From the IMG/VR virus record IMGVR_UViG_3300042261_002385, positions 310,001 to 374,000 of that record: a stretch of DNA of 64,000 nt. One strand, written 5' to 3'. Shown here piece after piece: positions 55,707-61,669 of this stretch. The DNA comes from a virus. Every line of letters starts with the position of its first letter. The stretch's first letter is position 1. The position numbers were made by a program, and so were the translations under genes. The notes beneath the pieces were generated by a model. It worked only from the letters and a program-made list of their open reading frames with translations. It did not search any database and was not told the origin of the DNA.

Positions 55707-55934
55707 ATGGAAAATAGTAAACCAGTAAAAAAATCAAACAGAAGAAAAAAAAAGAAAACTGTTAAAAGAGATTGGAAGACACTTCGTTTTATGTGTTTAA
55801 ATCAAGAAGGTAAATTTGAAATTATTGAATTTCCATCAATACTTGGACAAAATTATATTGACACTTTTGGCCTTCTTAAAGTTAGAACAAAAGAAGAAGT
55901 AAAAACCTGGTTGGCTTATAACAATGTATTTTAG
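55707..55934 (+). CDS. Small basic protein, 75 aa
   Basis: Strongly basic N-terminus (KKSNRRKKKKTVKRDWK), then a folded-looking FMCLNQEGKFEIIEFPSI. Nucleic-acid binding is possible. It overlaps rpiB by 11 bases. Confidence 0.65.
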   Translation: MENSKPVKKSNRRKKKKTVKRDWKTLRFMCLNQEGKFEIIEFPSILGQNYIDTFGLLKVRTKEEVKTWLAYNNVF

Positions 55935-56373
55935 AATTTCCATAGGATCCGACCACGCAGGTTTTGAGATTAAAGAAATCATCAAATCCTATTTACAAAA
56001 TCAAACTGAACATAAAATCGATTTAAATGATTTTGGTTGCTACTCTGAAGACAGAGTTGATTATCCAGACTTCGCACATTTAGTCGCGGGTCAAATTTCT
56101 GAAAATAAAGCTGATTTAGGAATATTAGTATGTGGTTCAGGAAACGGAATCTCAATGGCTGCTAATAAATGGTCTGGTATCAGATGTGCACTTTGTTGGA
56201 ATCCGGAAATTTCTAAAATGGCACGTTTACACAACGATGCTAATATACTTTCTCTTCCTGGTAGATATATATCTGAAGAAGATGCAATTGAATGTGTCAA
56301 AGAATTCTTAAACACAAGTTTTGAAGGTGGTAGACACTCGGATAGAATACAAAAAATTTCAAAAAATTTTTAA
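55924..56373 (+). CDS. rpiB: Ribose-5-phosphate isomerase B
   Basis: 149 aa, full length. GSDHAGFEIKEIIKSYL, DYPDFAHLVAG, LVCGSGNGISMAANKWSG (catalytic Cys in CGSGNG), and ARLHNDANILSLPGRYI, with the late Arg/His pairs, all match RpiB. It interconverts ribulose-5-P and ribose-5-P and so feeds PRPP synthesis. With PurN and PurA nearby it suggests extra purine supply. Confidence 0.93.
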   Translation: MYFRISIGSDHAGFEIKEIIKSYLQNQTEHKIDLNDFGCYSEDRVDYPDFAHLVAGQISENKADLGILVCGSGNGISMAANKWSGIRCALCWNPEISKMARLHNDANILSLPGRYISEEDAIECVKEFLNTSFEGGRHSDRIQKISKNF

Positions 56374-57612: not shown

Positions 57613-57640
57613 AAAAACCAGTCTTAATGACTGGTTTTTT
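57612..57640. terminator. Bidirectional rho-independent terminator
   Basis: Stem AACCAGTC/GACTGGTT (57616-57623 and 57629-57636) with a five-base loop, A-run and T-run on the two sides. It separates the membrane genes from the convergent leader gene. Confidence 0.9.
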
Positions 57641-58080
57641 TATATTTTTTCAAACTTTATAGTATTAAATATACATTTCACATTGCCTATCATTGATAGT
57701 CCTTTACCACCAACTTGAATTACCTCACCAACATTTATATCAGTAACTAAATCCATTGAATTGTCAGTACTTACAACTAACCAATTGTTTGTATTATCGT
57801 TTAATACTTTTACAGCACTTGGTGTATTTCTATGAGATTGACTTAAATCAATTTCCTTATCTTTGATTAACTTAAATGAACTAGAACTCTGGAATATTTT
57901 AACCTTTGCTAAGGGTTTTAACATCAATTCATTGTTTTCATTTCTTGCTAATAAACATTCAACTTCTAATACATCTGGTGTTCCTGGATTTATAGTAACT
58001 AAAAATCTATCTATGATTTGAACACCGTCTTGTTTATGTTGTTCGTAATTGAATTCCTCAAATATTTTTATATATCTCAT
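57640..58080 (-). CDS. Capsid-leader protein, beta-rich, 146 aa
   Basis: Starts MRYIKIFEEFNYEQHKQDGV (leader). The body is beta-rich, with DLVTDINVGEVIQVGGKG and a late GNVKCIFNTIKFEKI. Not recognised. It has a AATAAATATATAATG block upstream. Confidence 0.72.
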   Translation of the reverse strand: MRYIKIFEEFNYEQHKQDGVQIIDRFLVTINPGTPDVLEVECLLARNENNELMLKPLAKVKIFQSSSSFKLIKDKEIDLSQSHRNTPSAVKVLNDNTNNWLVVSTDNSMDLVTDINVGEVIQVGGKGLSMIGNVKCIFNTIKFEKI

Positions 58081-58168: not shown

Positions 58169-58546
58169 CTAATCTCTTGGAAAATCCTTACCTCTTTCAA
58201 CAACTTTCACTTCCCAATCTTTAGGTTGAAAAATCTCTTTAGTAAGTCTAACAGCTTTATCATAATCAAAAGGCTTACAAGAAAAAATATCTATAAAACA
58301 ATATCCTTTTTCTTCAAAAGAATGAACAGAAATATGAGATTCCGCAATTATAACAATTCCAGTAATTCCCCTATCTTCAGGAACTAAACCTTCATAAGGA
58401 AAAACATATGGTTGTGTGATTGGAGTCATTTGGATTAACTCAGGTATATTTTTTAAATAATCAAAGTGTAATTGATAATTAGATAATATATCTTTAGGAC
58501 ACCCTTTTAAGTCAAGGGTGATGTGAGGTCCAAATGCGTCTTCCAT
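58169..58546 (-). CDS. speD: S-adenosylmethionine decarboxylase proenzyme (SpeD)
   Basis: 125 aa, prokaryotic class 1b type. The self-cleavage site is IIAESHISVHSFEE (Ser70 becomes the pyruvoyl group), and YCFIDIFSC has the proton-donor Cys near residue 90. It makes decarboxylated AdoMet for spermidine, which could help pack DNA. It stands next to the ncRNA on the opposite strand. Confidence 0.92.
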   Translation of the reverse strand: MEDAFGPHITLDLKGCPKDILSNYQLHFDYLKNIPELIQMTPITQPYVFPYEGLVPEDRGITGIVIIAESHISVHSFEEKGYCFIDIFSCKPFDYDKAVRLTKEIFQPKDWEVKVVERGKDFPRD

Positions 58547-58595
58547 CGTTCATAAATTTTATTTTTTTAATTGAAGATTTATATAGTAAAAAAAT

Positions 58596-58626
58596 TTGTT
58601 TCTTTTCTCGGAAATCCTTAAATTTG
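58596..58626 (+). promoter_or_regulatory. Bacteroidetes-type promoter of the candidate ncRNA, TTG-N20-TAAATTTG
   Basis: TTG 58596-58598, 20 bases, TAAATTTG 58619-58626. The transcript would begin at about 58631-58633, just where the first hairpin begins. Confidence 0.62.
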
Positions 58627-58630
58627 TTAC

Positions 58631-58880
58631 AAGGTATTTAAGTTATACCGAAACCTAAATTAACAAATATCCTGTAATAAGCCAAGACGGCAATCTATGG
58701 TAAATAACAGGCTAACTTTTGCCGAGGTTAGGGGATAATAAATCTGTTGGTCCCGCAGTAGATGTCAGTATCAGTCATACCGATACGGTCGAACTAAAAG
58801 GTGTATGACAGGTGGATGAAATGTGAATTCTGAAACCATTTTGAAACCGATTAGTGTTTGATTCACACAGACACAATCGG
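58631..58880 (+). ncRNA. Candidate structured non-coding RNA, about 245-250 nt
   Basis: A 345-base gap between speD and the next gene has no ORF but looks like an RNA gene: a host-type promoter (58596-58626), several hairpins and an end terminator. Hairpins seen: GGTAT/ATACC (58633-58649), CCTGT/ACAGG (58671-58711) enclosing GCC/GGC, CTAAC/GTTAG (58712-58731), and GTCATACC/GGTGTATGAC around 58773-58809. ACAGG recurs (58808-58812), so CCTGT has two possible partners. By count about 46 % G+C in 58721-58800, well above the AT-rich surroundings. It is not a tRNA, tmRNA or RNase P as far as I can see. Confidence 0.62.
58845..58880 (+). terminator. Rho-independent terminator of the ncRNA
   Basis: AAACCGATT/AATCGGTTT stem around an inner GTGT/ACAC, followed by seven T. 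TGTGAAT (about 58822) could pair with ATTCACA in the loop, an alternative fold. Confidence 0.82.
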
Positions 58881-58890
58881 TTTTTTTATT

Positions 58891-59640
58891 TTAGTGTTTT
58901 AAGTTATTTTCTAAGGTGAAATGAACATTAACACTTATATTTCTTGACCACGCATAAGGCATTGCTGAACCAGCAACTTCAAAAGAAATTCTAAAACTAC
59001 CTCTTTCGTAATCTAAATTACCTAATAATTTTTGAGAAATTTCTTCAACTAAATCAAATAAACTTTGTTCAAATTTATTTAGTGATTTACCACTTCCTCT
59101 TAGTGTGGAAATATCAGTCGATATAATACCATTATCATCAAATTTACTAGTAATAGTCATATTTCCATGCCAGATATCTTGAATATTTTTATTTAAAGAA
59201 ATCCTTAATTCTTCTTGACTAAAATATCCTACTTCTTCATCATCTAAATCAACAGAATGTTTTTGTATATCATAATCCATAAAATTTAATTCAAAGTCTT
59301 GGTCATACAACTCAACTAGACAATTGTTAATCATATTTAGCGTCTCAGGATTATAAGCTGGATCACGATGTCTTAGTTCTCCTGTCTCATCAGACTCTTT
59401 AACATGAGTTACTCCTTTAGCTGGCGCTAAATCTCTTAAATCAGTTACCTCAGATGGTTTTCCTTTTTTTCTCTTACTTTTAGTTCTTAAATAAAAAGAT
59501 GGATCTCCTGAACCATCCATAGCTCCGACACCTGGTAAACTTCCAACTGTTGCTGATACTACAGGTCCAGCTCCAGCAGTTGAGGAAGCAGTTGCTACCG
59601 CATTTTCTTGAAACTTTTTATATGATTTGATATATCTCAT
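58891..59640 (-). CDS. Capsid-leader protein with Ala/Gly/Pro linker, 249 aa
   Basis: Starts MRYIKSYKKFQENAVATASS with F-Q-E. A Ser/Ala/Gly/Thr-rich segment (about residues 15-50, ending PSFYLRTKSKRKKGKP) and an alpha/beta body with SFRISFEVAGSAMPYAWSRN follow. Not recognised. A divergent Smr gene shares its promoter region. Confidence 0.72.
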   Translation of the reverse strand: MRYIKSYKKFQENAVATASSTAGAGPVVSATVGSLPGVGAMDGSGDPSFYLRTKSKRKKGKPSEVTDLRDLAPAKGVTHVKESDETGELRHRDPAYNPETLNMINNCLVELYDQDFELNFMDYDIQKHSVDLDDEEVGYFSQEELRISLNKNIQDIWHGNMTITSKFDDNGIISTDISTLRGSGKSLNKFEQSLFDLVEEISQKLLGNLDYERGSFRISFEVAGSAMPYAWSRNISVNVHFTLENNLKH

Positions 59641-59658: not shown

Positions 59659-59883
59659 ATGAAAAATAGAATTGACCTACATGGTATAAAACATGAAAAT
59701 GTCCAAAGAGAGTTAGACCAATTTTATTGGGAAATGATGCAAAAAGGTCACTCTGAAGTTGAAGTTGTAACTGGTATATCTAATAGAATGAAAGAGATAG
59801 TCAAACAGGTTTCTGAAGATTATAACTTTACGGTTTTAGAAACTACAATAAATCCTGGAGCTTTAATAGTAAGAATAAAATAA
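59659..59883 (+). CDS. Smr-domain protein, 74 aa
   Basis: MKNRIDLHGIKHENVQRELD gives the DLHG motif; EVEVVTGISNRMKEIV and TTINPGALIVRIK complete the small MutS-related (Smr) domain. Smr domains are nucleases or RNA/DNA-binding. Stand-alone and close to the minimum size for the fold. Shares a promoter region with the divergent leader gene. Confidence 0.85.
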   Translation: MKNRIDLHGIKHENVQRELDQFYWEMMQKGHSEVEVVTGISNRMKEIVKQVSEDYNFTVLETTINPGALIVRIK

Positions 59884-60165
59884 TTAAAGATATTTTATTT
59901 CAGAATAAAGAGGTCTATTTACTCTATGTGACATATAACCTTCTATACCTCTTGAGTCTAAACCTAATTCCTTAATCAACTCTTGAGAGTATTGAACAGG
60001 ATTTTTACCCATTTCTATTTCTGACTCAATGTCTAAACGATTTATTAACTCTCTTACTTCAACCGCGCTCATATTTAACTTACCTAATTGTCTTCTTAAT
60101 TCATCAACAAATTCTTCCGGTGTGTAGTTTGATTCAAATAATTTAAAAGACTTTAAGTGCTTCAT
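59884..60165 (-). CDS. Capsid-leader protein, 93 aa
   Basis: Starts MKHLKSFKLFESNYTPEEFV, a clear leader with L-F-E at residues 9-11. The remaining 80 residues are helical and charged, ending GLDSRGIEGYMSHRVN. Not recognised. It is convergent with the Smr gene, with no gap. Confidence 0.75.
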   Translation of the reverse strand: MKHLKSFKLFESNYTPEEFVDELRRQLGKLNMSAVEVRELINRLDIESEIEMGKNPVQYSQELIKELGLDSRGIEGYMSHRVNRPLYSEIKYL

Positions 60166-60211: not shown

Positions 60212-61669
60212 ATGATAAGCAAATATTTAGAATTTATTAACGAGTCAAAAGAACTCATTTTAGAATCTGACGTTGTCTATTCTAAAATGTTTAGAACAGC
60301 ATTAACAAAGATTGATAGCCCAATATCAAAAATACTTTTGGATGTAGAAAATAAAGACCTACCAGTAGCTTCAAACTATTTTGATTTAGCTAGAGGAAAA
60401 AACGACACACTTTCTGTTATTCCAGATAGAAAAGCTAAAGAGATTTTAGAAGATACAAAAGAAATGGTTAGATTTACTGGCTCAGGTGGTGGTTGGTTAA
60501 AACACTCAGATGCTAACACATCTATATTCCAACAATTAGGATATGAACCAGAAGGTGAAGTTTATCAACCTAATTCAACTGCAATAGGTGAGGTAGTTTC
60601 AAAAGTAACATCACAAACATCAGGAAAAGTTTGGTGTTATGTGAAATTTCCAGACGGTAAAGGTGTTTATAATCAAGAGAAACTTAGAGTAGTTGATGAG
60701 AGACTAAAAGAAGTTTGGTCAAAAAATAGACAAGAAGTTAGAATAGGAAGAGCTATAAGAGCACTATTAACAGTAGCAGGTGAGAATGTTTTGGATAAAG
60801 ATTTAGAGGTTTTTGTAAATCTTTGGAAAGCAACAATTGATAAAATGAATGATAGATTCCAATATTTTGATGTAGTTGAAGGCCAAGATATCGGTCACTG
60901 GTATCACTACTCTAACTACAAAGAAAGAAGTGGAAGTCTTGGTTCTAGTTGTATGTCAAATGTAAATTCTAATTATTTCGATATCTATATGACAAATACA
61001 GATGTTTGTAAATTAATAATACTTAGATCTGTTGAAGATGATTCTCTAATTGTTGGAAGAGCTTTACTTTGGACACTTACCGATGGTAAAAAATTTGTTG
61101 ATAGAATTTACACAATTCAAGATTCAGATGTTCAACTTTTTAGAGACTATGCAAGAGAGAATGGTTGGTATACAAAACAATATAATTCATCTTCAGATTC
61201 TGGTAGAGCAAATGCTCCTGATGGAACACAAGTTGATTTAGGAAAAATTACCGTAGATATTAAAGCAGGAATGTATGAAGCTTATCCTTATTTAGATACT
61301 CTTAAATATTTTAAACCAAGAGAAGGAACACTTTCTAATGTGAGAACTGGTCGAGGTGATGAATATACATTAGAGGACACTTCTGGTGAACTTTGGAGAT
61401 GTGAATACTGTGGTGGATCAGGAATGCAAACTTGTGGTAACTGTGATGGGGACGGTTATTGGGATTGTCACAGATGTAGTGGATCTGGAGAAAGAGAGTG
61501 TGGTGAATGCGATGGTTCTGGAAAGGTAGAGGGAGACGAAGGTGAAGAGGAGTGTCCAGAATGTGGTGGGTCAGGAAACAATGAATGTTCATATTGTGAT
61601 GGTTCAGGAAGAGAAGATTGTGATGATTGCAACGGAAGAGGAGAACACTCTTGTTATGAATGTCAATAA
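60212..61669 (+). CDS. Capsid-leader protein with GSLGSSCM domain and DnaJ-like zinc finger, 485 aa
   Basis: Starts MISKYLEFINESKELILESD with I-N-E at 9-11. The middle (about 150-380) aligns with the gene at 1885: ERSGSLGSSCM, YFDIYMTNTD, GRALLWTL, DRIYTIQDSDV. From about 400 to the end lie eight or more Cys pairs in CxxCxGxG-like units (CEYCGGSG, CGNCDGDG, CHRCSGSG, CGECDGSG, CPECGGSG, CSYCDGSG, CDDCNGRG, CYEC), more than the four of DnaJ. Unknown function; inferred internal-head protein with a zinc-binding arm. The next leader gene starts three bases later. Confidence 0.8.
   Translation: MISKYLEFINESKELILESDVVYSKMFRTALTKIDSPISKILLDVENKDLPVASNYFDLARGKNDTLSVIPDRKAKEILEDTKEMVRFTGSGGGWLKHSDANTSIFQQLGYEPEGEVYQPNSTAIGEVVSKVTSQTSGKVWCYVKFPDGKGVYNQEKLRVVDERLKEVWSKNRQEVRIGRAIRALLTVAGENVLDKDLEVFVNLWKATIDKMNDRFQYFDVVEGQDIGHWYHYSNYKERSGSLGSSCMSNVNSNYFDIYMTNTDVCKLIILRSVEDDSLIVGRALLWTLTDGKKFVDRIYTIQDSDVQLFRDYARENGWYTKQYNSSSDSGRANAPDGTQVDLGKITVDIKAGMYEAYPYLDTLKYFKPREGTLSNVRTGRGDEYTLEDTSGELWRCEYCGGSGMQTCGNCDGDGYWDCHRCSGSGERECGECDGSGKVEGDEGEEECPECGGSGNNECSYCDGSGREDCDDCNGRGEHSCYECQ

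Follow-up and report, generated by a model that had tools for sequence, protein, structure and literature searches.

Anatomy of the locus

The window analyzed here is a 64,000-nucleotide stretch of a 436,265-base IMG/VR contig (G000), in which speD (58169-58546, minus strand, PF02675) and an open reading frame (ORF) starting at 58891 are separated by 344 bases that contain no ORF of at least 40 amino acids, as the initial annotation had noted. Judged by its sequence, the segment from 58619 to 58887 (G000:368619-368887) is a free-standing noncoding RNA gene, comprising a Bacteroidota-type promoter, a structured body of ~255 nt, and a terminator (Table 1). speD points away from the predicted RNA, and the ORF at 58891 is convergent with it. 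The 5' end of the RNA is placed by promoter spacing and the 3' end by the terminator; the extent proposed at the outset, 58596 to 58880, fits the promoter at its start and should reach about 58887 at its end.

The promoter had been read as a TTG-N20 arrangement and is indeed exact; TTG-N20-TAAATTTG is the form of a Bacteroidota housekeeping promoter. The pattern alone is weak evidence, since the window has 19 such sites compared with 11.9 ± 3.7 expected. The raised G+C content reported for 58721 to 58800 is measured at 46.3%, versus about 25% around it. In comparison with shuffled sequence, folding is better for the plus strand (z = -2.63) but not for the minus strand (z = -1.20). The rho-independent terminator called initially is the sole terminator-like hairpin in 58500 to 58950 and is the one closing the RNA, with the prediction covering the inner part of the stem. 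No tRNA or tmRNA is detected in the window, either with ARAGORN or through Rfam. By themselves, these features of the window are weak evidence, and the case therefore rests on relatives of the RNA.

Table 1. Positions (window coordinates) and pairing of the elements of the predicted RNA gene
Feature	Positions	Strand	Details
Promoter, TTG-N20-TAAATTTG	58596-58626	+	Exact match; -33 TTG at 58596-58598, -7 TAAATTTG at 58619-58626
Predicted noncoding RNA, ~255 nt	58631-58884	+	10 homologs, 66-98% core identity; covariance-model scores of 143-208 bits
P1, 5' hairpin GGTAT/ATACC	58633-58649	+	58633-58637 with 58645-58649; paired in 10/10, with compensatory GC-AU and UA-AU changes
P2, CCTGT/ACAGG	58671-58711	+	58671-58675 with 58707-58711; 48/50 cells paired in hand alignment, 4 pairs with two-sided changes
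P3, GCC/GGT (lower) and AGA/TCT (upper) stems around loop CGGCAA	58681-58701	+	Sequence strongly variable, pairing kept; 96.7% and 90% of cells
KL, 6-bp loop-loop kiss CGGCAA x TTGCCG	58688-58724	+	58688-58693 with 58719-58724; 60/60 cells paired
PB, hairpin CTAACTT/AGGTTAG	58712-58731	+	All 6 nt of the loop engaged in KL; 97% of cells paired, two compensatory pairs
PC/QC, H-type pseudoknot	58732-58758	+	PC GGGAT/GTCCC, 58732-58736 with 58750-58754; QC CTG/CAG, 58744-58746 with 58756-58758
PD, hairpin GTATC/GATAC	58768-58786	+	58768-58772 with 58782-58786; 100% paired, 5/5 pairs with compensatory changes
KD, pseudoknot of PD loop, GTCATAC x GTATGAC	58774-58809	+	58774-58780 with 58803-58809; 9/9 complete copies
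Unpaired segment, invariant GAA-Y/A-TAAAAG	58789-58802	+	GAA-TAAAAG constant in all copies
KE, TGTGAAT x terminator loop ATTCACA	58822-58867	+	58822-58828 with 58861-58867; 36/36 cells of 4-bp core paired
Intrinsic terminator, AACCGATT-GTGT/ACAC-AATCGGTT stem and T7 tract	58845-58887	+	Stem 58845-58857 with 58871-58882

Relatives and conserved fold

Nine further copies of the RNA are present in two huge phages (634 to 642 kb), six IMG/VR contigs, and one contig of a Bacteroidota genome bin. LR745206.1 (634,780 bp) and LR756502.1 (642,428 bp) were found by blastn in a phage collection, the six contigs (L004, L005, L006, L007, L008, and L014) by core-pattern scans of IMG/VR, and the last (L011) by a scan of bacterial genomes. 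The ten copies have a mean core identity of 77%, are all recovered by covariance model R1 with one strong match per record, and amount to nine effectively distinct sequences, L005 and L007 being nearly identical; nine copies are complete. There is no credible model match in two other huge phages, the 735-kb LR756501 and the 636-kb LR756504, or in the Lak phage Lak-B1, and a search with stricter filters did not find the RNA among 394 further genomes from the bacterial class that includes the L011 bin. Four further loci (L009, L010, L012, and L013) were rejected as chance pattern matches. A second model match in the record of L014 was set aside as weak and A+T-rich. In L011 (positions 1 to 330), the sole bacterial-genome contig with the RNA, the RNA is joined to the middle of the rpsE gene (ribosomal protein S5) at the contig end, and this contig is probably an assembly chimera; curiously, at the junction the S5 frame translates the conserved RNA stretch ATCGAATTAAAAGAT as IELKD.

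All ten copies have the promoter half TAnnTTTG at constant spacing to P1, and an upstream TTG or TTTG is seen in about seven of them. By reading, an equivalent terminator hairpin closes each of the nine complete copies, and these share no reading frame; the core often has insertions and deletions of 1, 2, 4, or 5 nt.

The alignments support seven helices (P1, P2, P3, PB, PC, QC, and PD) together with four long-range pairings: the loop-loop kiss KL, an H-type pseudoknot, the hairpin-loop pseudoknot KD, and KE, between TGTGAAT and the terminator loop. KL joins the complete 6-nt loops of two adjoining hairpins, as CGGCAA with UUGCCG in six copies and CGGUAA with UUACCG in the other four, with no exceptions. 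Nine copies have PC as GGGAU/GUCCC, whereas L014 has GGAUU/AAUCC, which requires two simultaneous compensations, and KD changes in the same copy from GUCAUAC/GUAUGAC to GCUAUAC/GUGUAGU. QC (CUG/CAG), which makes PC an H-type pseudoknot, is invariant in all ten copies and is thus without covariation support. P2 looks weak in automatic alignments because a 1-nt shift is needed between two groups of copies, which leaves those alignments one base off-register for part of the set. The unpaired segment that contains the invariant GAA and TAAAAG is, from its conservation, a candidate binding or seed site.

Two possible switching folds had been proposed for this region, a suggestion that is only partly borne out. 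The CCTGT at 58671 was thought to pair with either of two ACAGG copies; the first (58707) is its conserved and compensated partner, and the second (~58807) was rejected as a conserved partner, the window and L006 being, by inspection, the only copies in which the match is complete. The pairing proposed between TGTGAAT and the terminator loop is both conserved and supported by covariation, with GUGA/UCAC replaced by GCGA/UCGC (UA to CG) in LR756502, L005, and L007 (the latter two near-identical), although the varying pairs in KE are few. KE nonetheless looks like the closure of a pseudoknot that is compatible with the terminator stem, and it need not switch anything.

Compensatory changes are well above controls, as expected of a conserved structured noncoding RNA. 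In a model-fitted alignment, 96.2% of cells are paired and 40 are compensatory, compared with 12.0 after shuffling and with none of 500 shuffles reaching the observed value; the model behind this alignment omitted P2, KL, QC, and KD. A structure-free MAFFT alignment gives 93.7% of cells paired (88.2% when shuffled) and 32 two-sided compensatory cells (12.4 when shuffled, again with 0/500 shuffles reaching it). When the partners are slid by 1 to 3 columns, only 30 to 46% of cells are paired, and 30 to 45% in the model-fitted alignment. RNAalifold recovers KD and KE unprompted. In the hand alignment, 494 of 499 cells are paired, with registers set by eye in a way that favors P3 in particular. 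From these comparisons it is nearly certain that the locus encodes a multiply pseudoknotted noncoding RNA of ~255 nt with an evolutionarily conserved fold, and the original proposal of a structured RNA with a host-type promoter and terminator is thus backed by comparative data.

Genomic setting and known RNA families

The RNA occurs once per record in shuffled gene contexts, and no neighboring gene is constant. The 3' gene is convergent in most loci, speD adjoins the RNA in the window, L007, and L008, and the flanking genes are reshuffled in LR756502, L005, L007, and L008. By its anatomy the RNA is a predicted independent transcription unit, since the genes on either side differ in identity and orientation from locus to locus while the RNA persists, speD points away from it, and LR756501 has speD without the RNA (none is seen upstream of that gene). 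The relatives LR745206 and LR756502 come from freshwater and subsurface samples (PMC9723777), and phages over 634 kb belong to the Mahaphage clade with predicted Bacteroidetes hosts (PMC7162821). The RNA belongs to a lineage of huge phages that probably infect Bacteroidota.

Genes near the RNA include those for SpeD (AdoMet decarboxylase), an RpiB-type isomerase (55924-56373, plus strand), and a small Smr-domain protein (59659-59883, plus strand), relatives of which recur at other huge-phage loci. The ORFs at 57640-58080, 58891-59640, and 59884-60165 share with many ORFs in the relatives, otherwise unrelated, an N-terminal motif, M-(R/K)-x-(I/L)-K-x-(F/Y)-x-x-F-x-E, which is possibly a common targeting or processing sequence. 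A 485-amino-acid ORF (60212-61669) ends in repeated CxxCxGxG-like (DnaJ-type) zinc-finger motifs, with a Pfam match that is weak and below threshold.

The Rfam search that had been suggested as a check on novelty gives no match: Rfam 15 has none at curated gathering thresholds in the 64-kb window or in the RNA regions of seven relatives, and at relaxed thresholds the best subthreshold matches have E values of 3.5 to 9.9. We found no description of this RNA in the searchable literature, a scope that does not extend to large supplementary RNA catalogues. By Rfam 15 and the searchable papers, those catalogues aside, it is a new RNA class, and its general kind, the orphan structured phage RNA, is known. 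Phage T4 RNAs C and D are likewise stable phage-encoded small RNAs of unclear function. ROOL (Rumen-Originating, Ornate, Large) is similarly a free-standing structured phage or prophage RNA, the fold of which includes pseudoknots and a covarying kissing loop (PMC12286853), but is ~659 nt in the solved example and often near tRNA islands, unlike the ~255-nt RNA here, which has no tRNAs in the window and no match to the Rfam model. GOLLD is also a free-standing phage or prophage RNA with many tertiary contacts (PMC12286853), although many of its members are longer than 800 nt and are found near tRNA islands, and its Rfam model has no match here either. A term search of the huge-phage reference paper returns a single mention of noncoding RNA, in the context of what phage CRISPR spacers may target in bacteria (PMC7162821).

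Possible modes of action

Taken as a whole, the explanation we prefer is a free-standing, multi-pseudoknot RNA gene of huge phages that acts in trans as a scaffold or decoy, to which we give an even chance. Because the host-type promoter is conserved, host RNA polymerase could transcribe the RNA from its own promoter, and the transcript would end at its own terminator. The RNA would then most likely act in trans as a compact scaffold or decoy, binding the ribosome or a protein of host or phage origin via conserved unpaired and pseudoknot elements (GAAYTAAAAG and the CTGTT...CCGCAGTAG core). For this mechanism taken alone we would put the chance somewhat short of even. That a single-copy RNA gene keeps an intricate fold amid gene shuffling implies a selected function during infection, and little work seems to have been done on functional RNAs in huge phages. 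It is conceivable, although less likely than not, that the multi-pseudoknot fold of this new RNA class of huge Bacteroidota phages has a function new for a phage RNA, such as a decoy binding ribosome or polymerase or an RNA-only assembly held by hexamer kisses. The exact helices and the natural orthogonal kissing-loop swap (C-G to U-A) make the structure testable in vitro with RNA alone and no cultured phage.

Alternatively, GAAYTAAAAG, which is conserved and single-stranded, might serve as an antisense seed, so that the RNA would be a trans-acting antisense small RNA pairing with host or phage mRNAs through this segment or through the A-rich stretch after P1. The invariance of the unpaired GAA-TAAAAG in all copies and the stand-alone promoter and terminator, as in typical small RNAs, agree with such a role. 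Most of the conserved bases, however, are locked in helices and the four long-range pairings, with few left free, which is unusual for a simple antisense RNA; on this ground we favor the scaffold or decoy and regard antisense action as rather unlikely.

The perfect complementarity and covariation of two entire 6-nt loops would also suit an RNA-only homo-oligomer in which these hexamer loops kiss between molecules, as in the phage RNAs ROOL and GOLLD, where covarying intermolecular kissing loops keep the assembly together (PMC12286853). Neighboring hairpins can form the same kiss in cis, however, and the sequence fits cis and trans alike; at ~255 nt the RNA is also far from ~660 nt (ROOL) and over 800 nt (GOLLD) and has no detectable homology with them. 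An oligomer of this kind is distinctly unlikely.

Y RNAs bound by Ro60 offer another parallel, in that this noncoding RNA occurs in phages of which two also encode a TROVE protein, although the RNA is not adjacent to the TROVE gene and matches no Y-RNA family. Full-length Ro60-like (TROVE plus vWA) proteins, 81% identical, are encoded by the phage of the window (G000:186844-188295) and by LR745206 (241087-242535), and no TROVE gene is detected in LR756502, LR756501, LR756504, or Lak-B1. The gene is present in two of the three largest RNA-bearing records (the remaining records are fragments). Its presence in those two phages and its absence from two huge phages without the RNA would fit a client of the phage Ro60-like protein acting like a Y RNA. 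Against this, LR756502 has the RNA and no detectable TROVE gene, the RNA and the TROVE gene of G000 are ~180 kb apart, and the site directly upstream of the TROVE gene, the usual one for a Y RNA, is occupied by a different conserved structured RNA. We consider it very unlikely that the RNA at 58631-58884 is a Ro60 client, and the TROVE-upstream RNA, by its position, is the better candidate.

This second, larger structured noncoding region (G000:188296-188876; L095:5297-5877, minus strand) is outside the window, folds with a z of -4.96, and is conserved in LR745206 (L096:3513-4087, plus strand), with its own terminator. It has no Rfam match and is a candidate for either a Y-like RNA or a new class.

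A self-cleaving ribozyme, intron remnant, or other catalytic RNA might be read from the compact multi-pseudoknot fold and invariant core, but is extremely improbable, as no Rfam ribozyme or intron family matches and the RNA has its own promoter and terminator and no flanking exon or mobile-element context. Least probable is a cis-acting riboswitch or leader of speD or another adjoining gene: for all that speD is a neighbor at three loci, the RNA is not 5' of and codirectional with it, other loci have other and often convergent neighbors, LR756501 has the gene alone, and a terminator closes the RNA, so that orientation and differing context rule out a speD riboswitch.

The second model match in LR756502 was rejected as a copy of the RNA, because the part in common is only the promoter and P1. 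At this site (LR756502.1:10933-11070, minus strand; L064:1501-1636), the same 5' module, consisting of the TATCTTTG promoter half, the spacing, the exact GGTATTTAAGTTATACC hairpin, and GAAACC, is followed by unlike sequence that has potential hairpins of its own, an arrangement suggestive of a reusable cassette of promoter and 5' hairpin.
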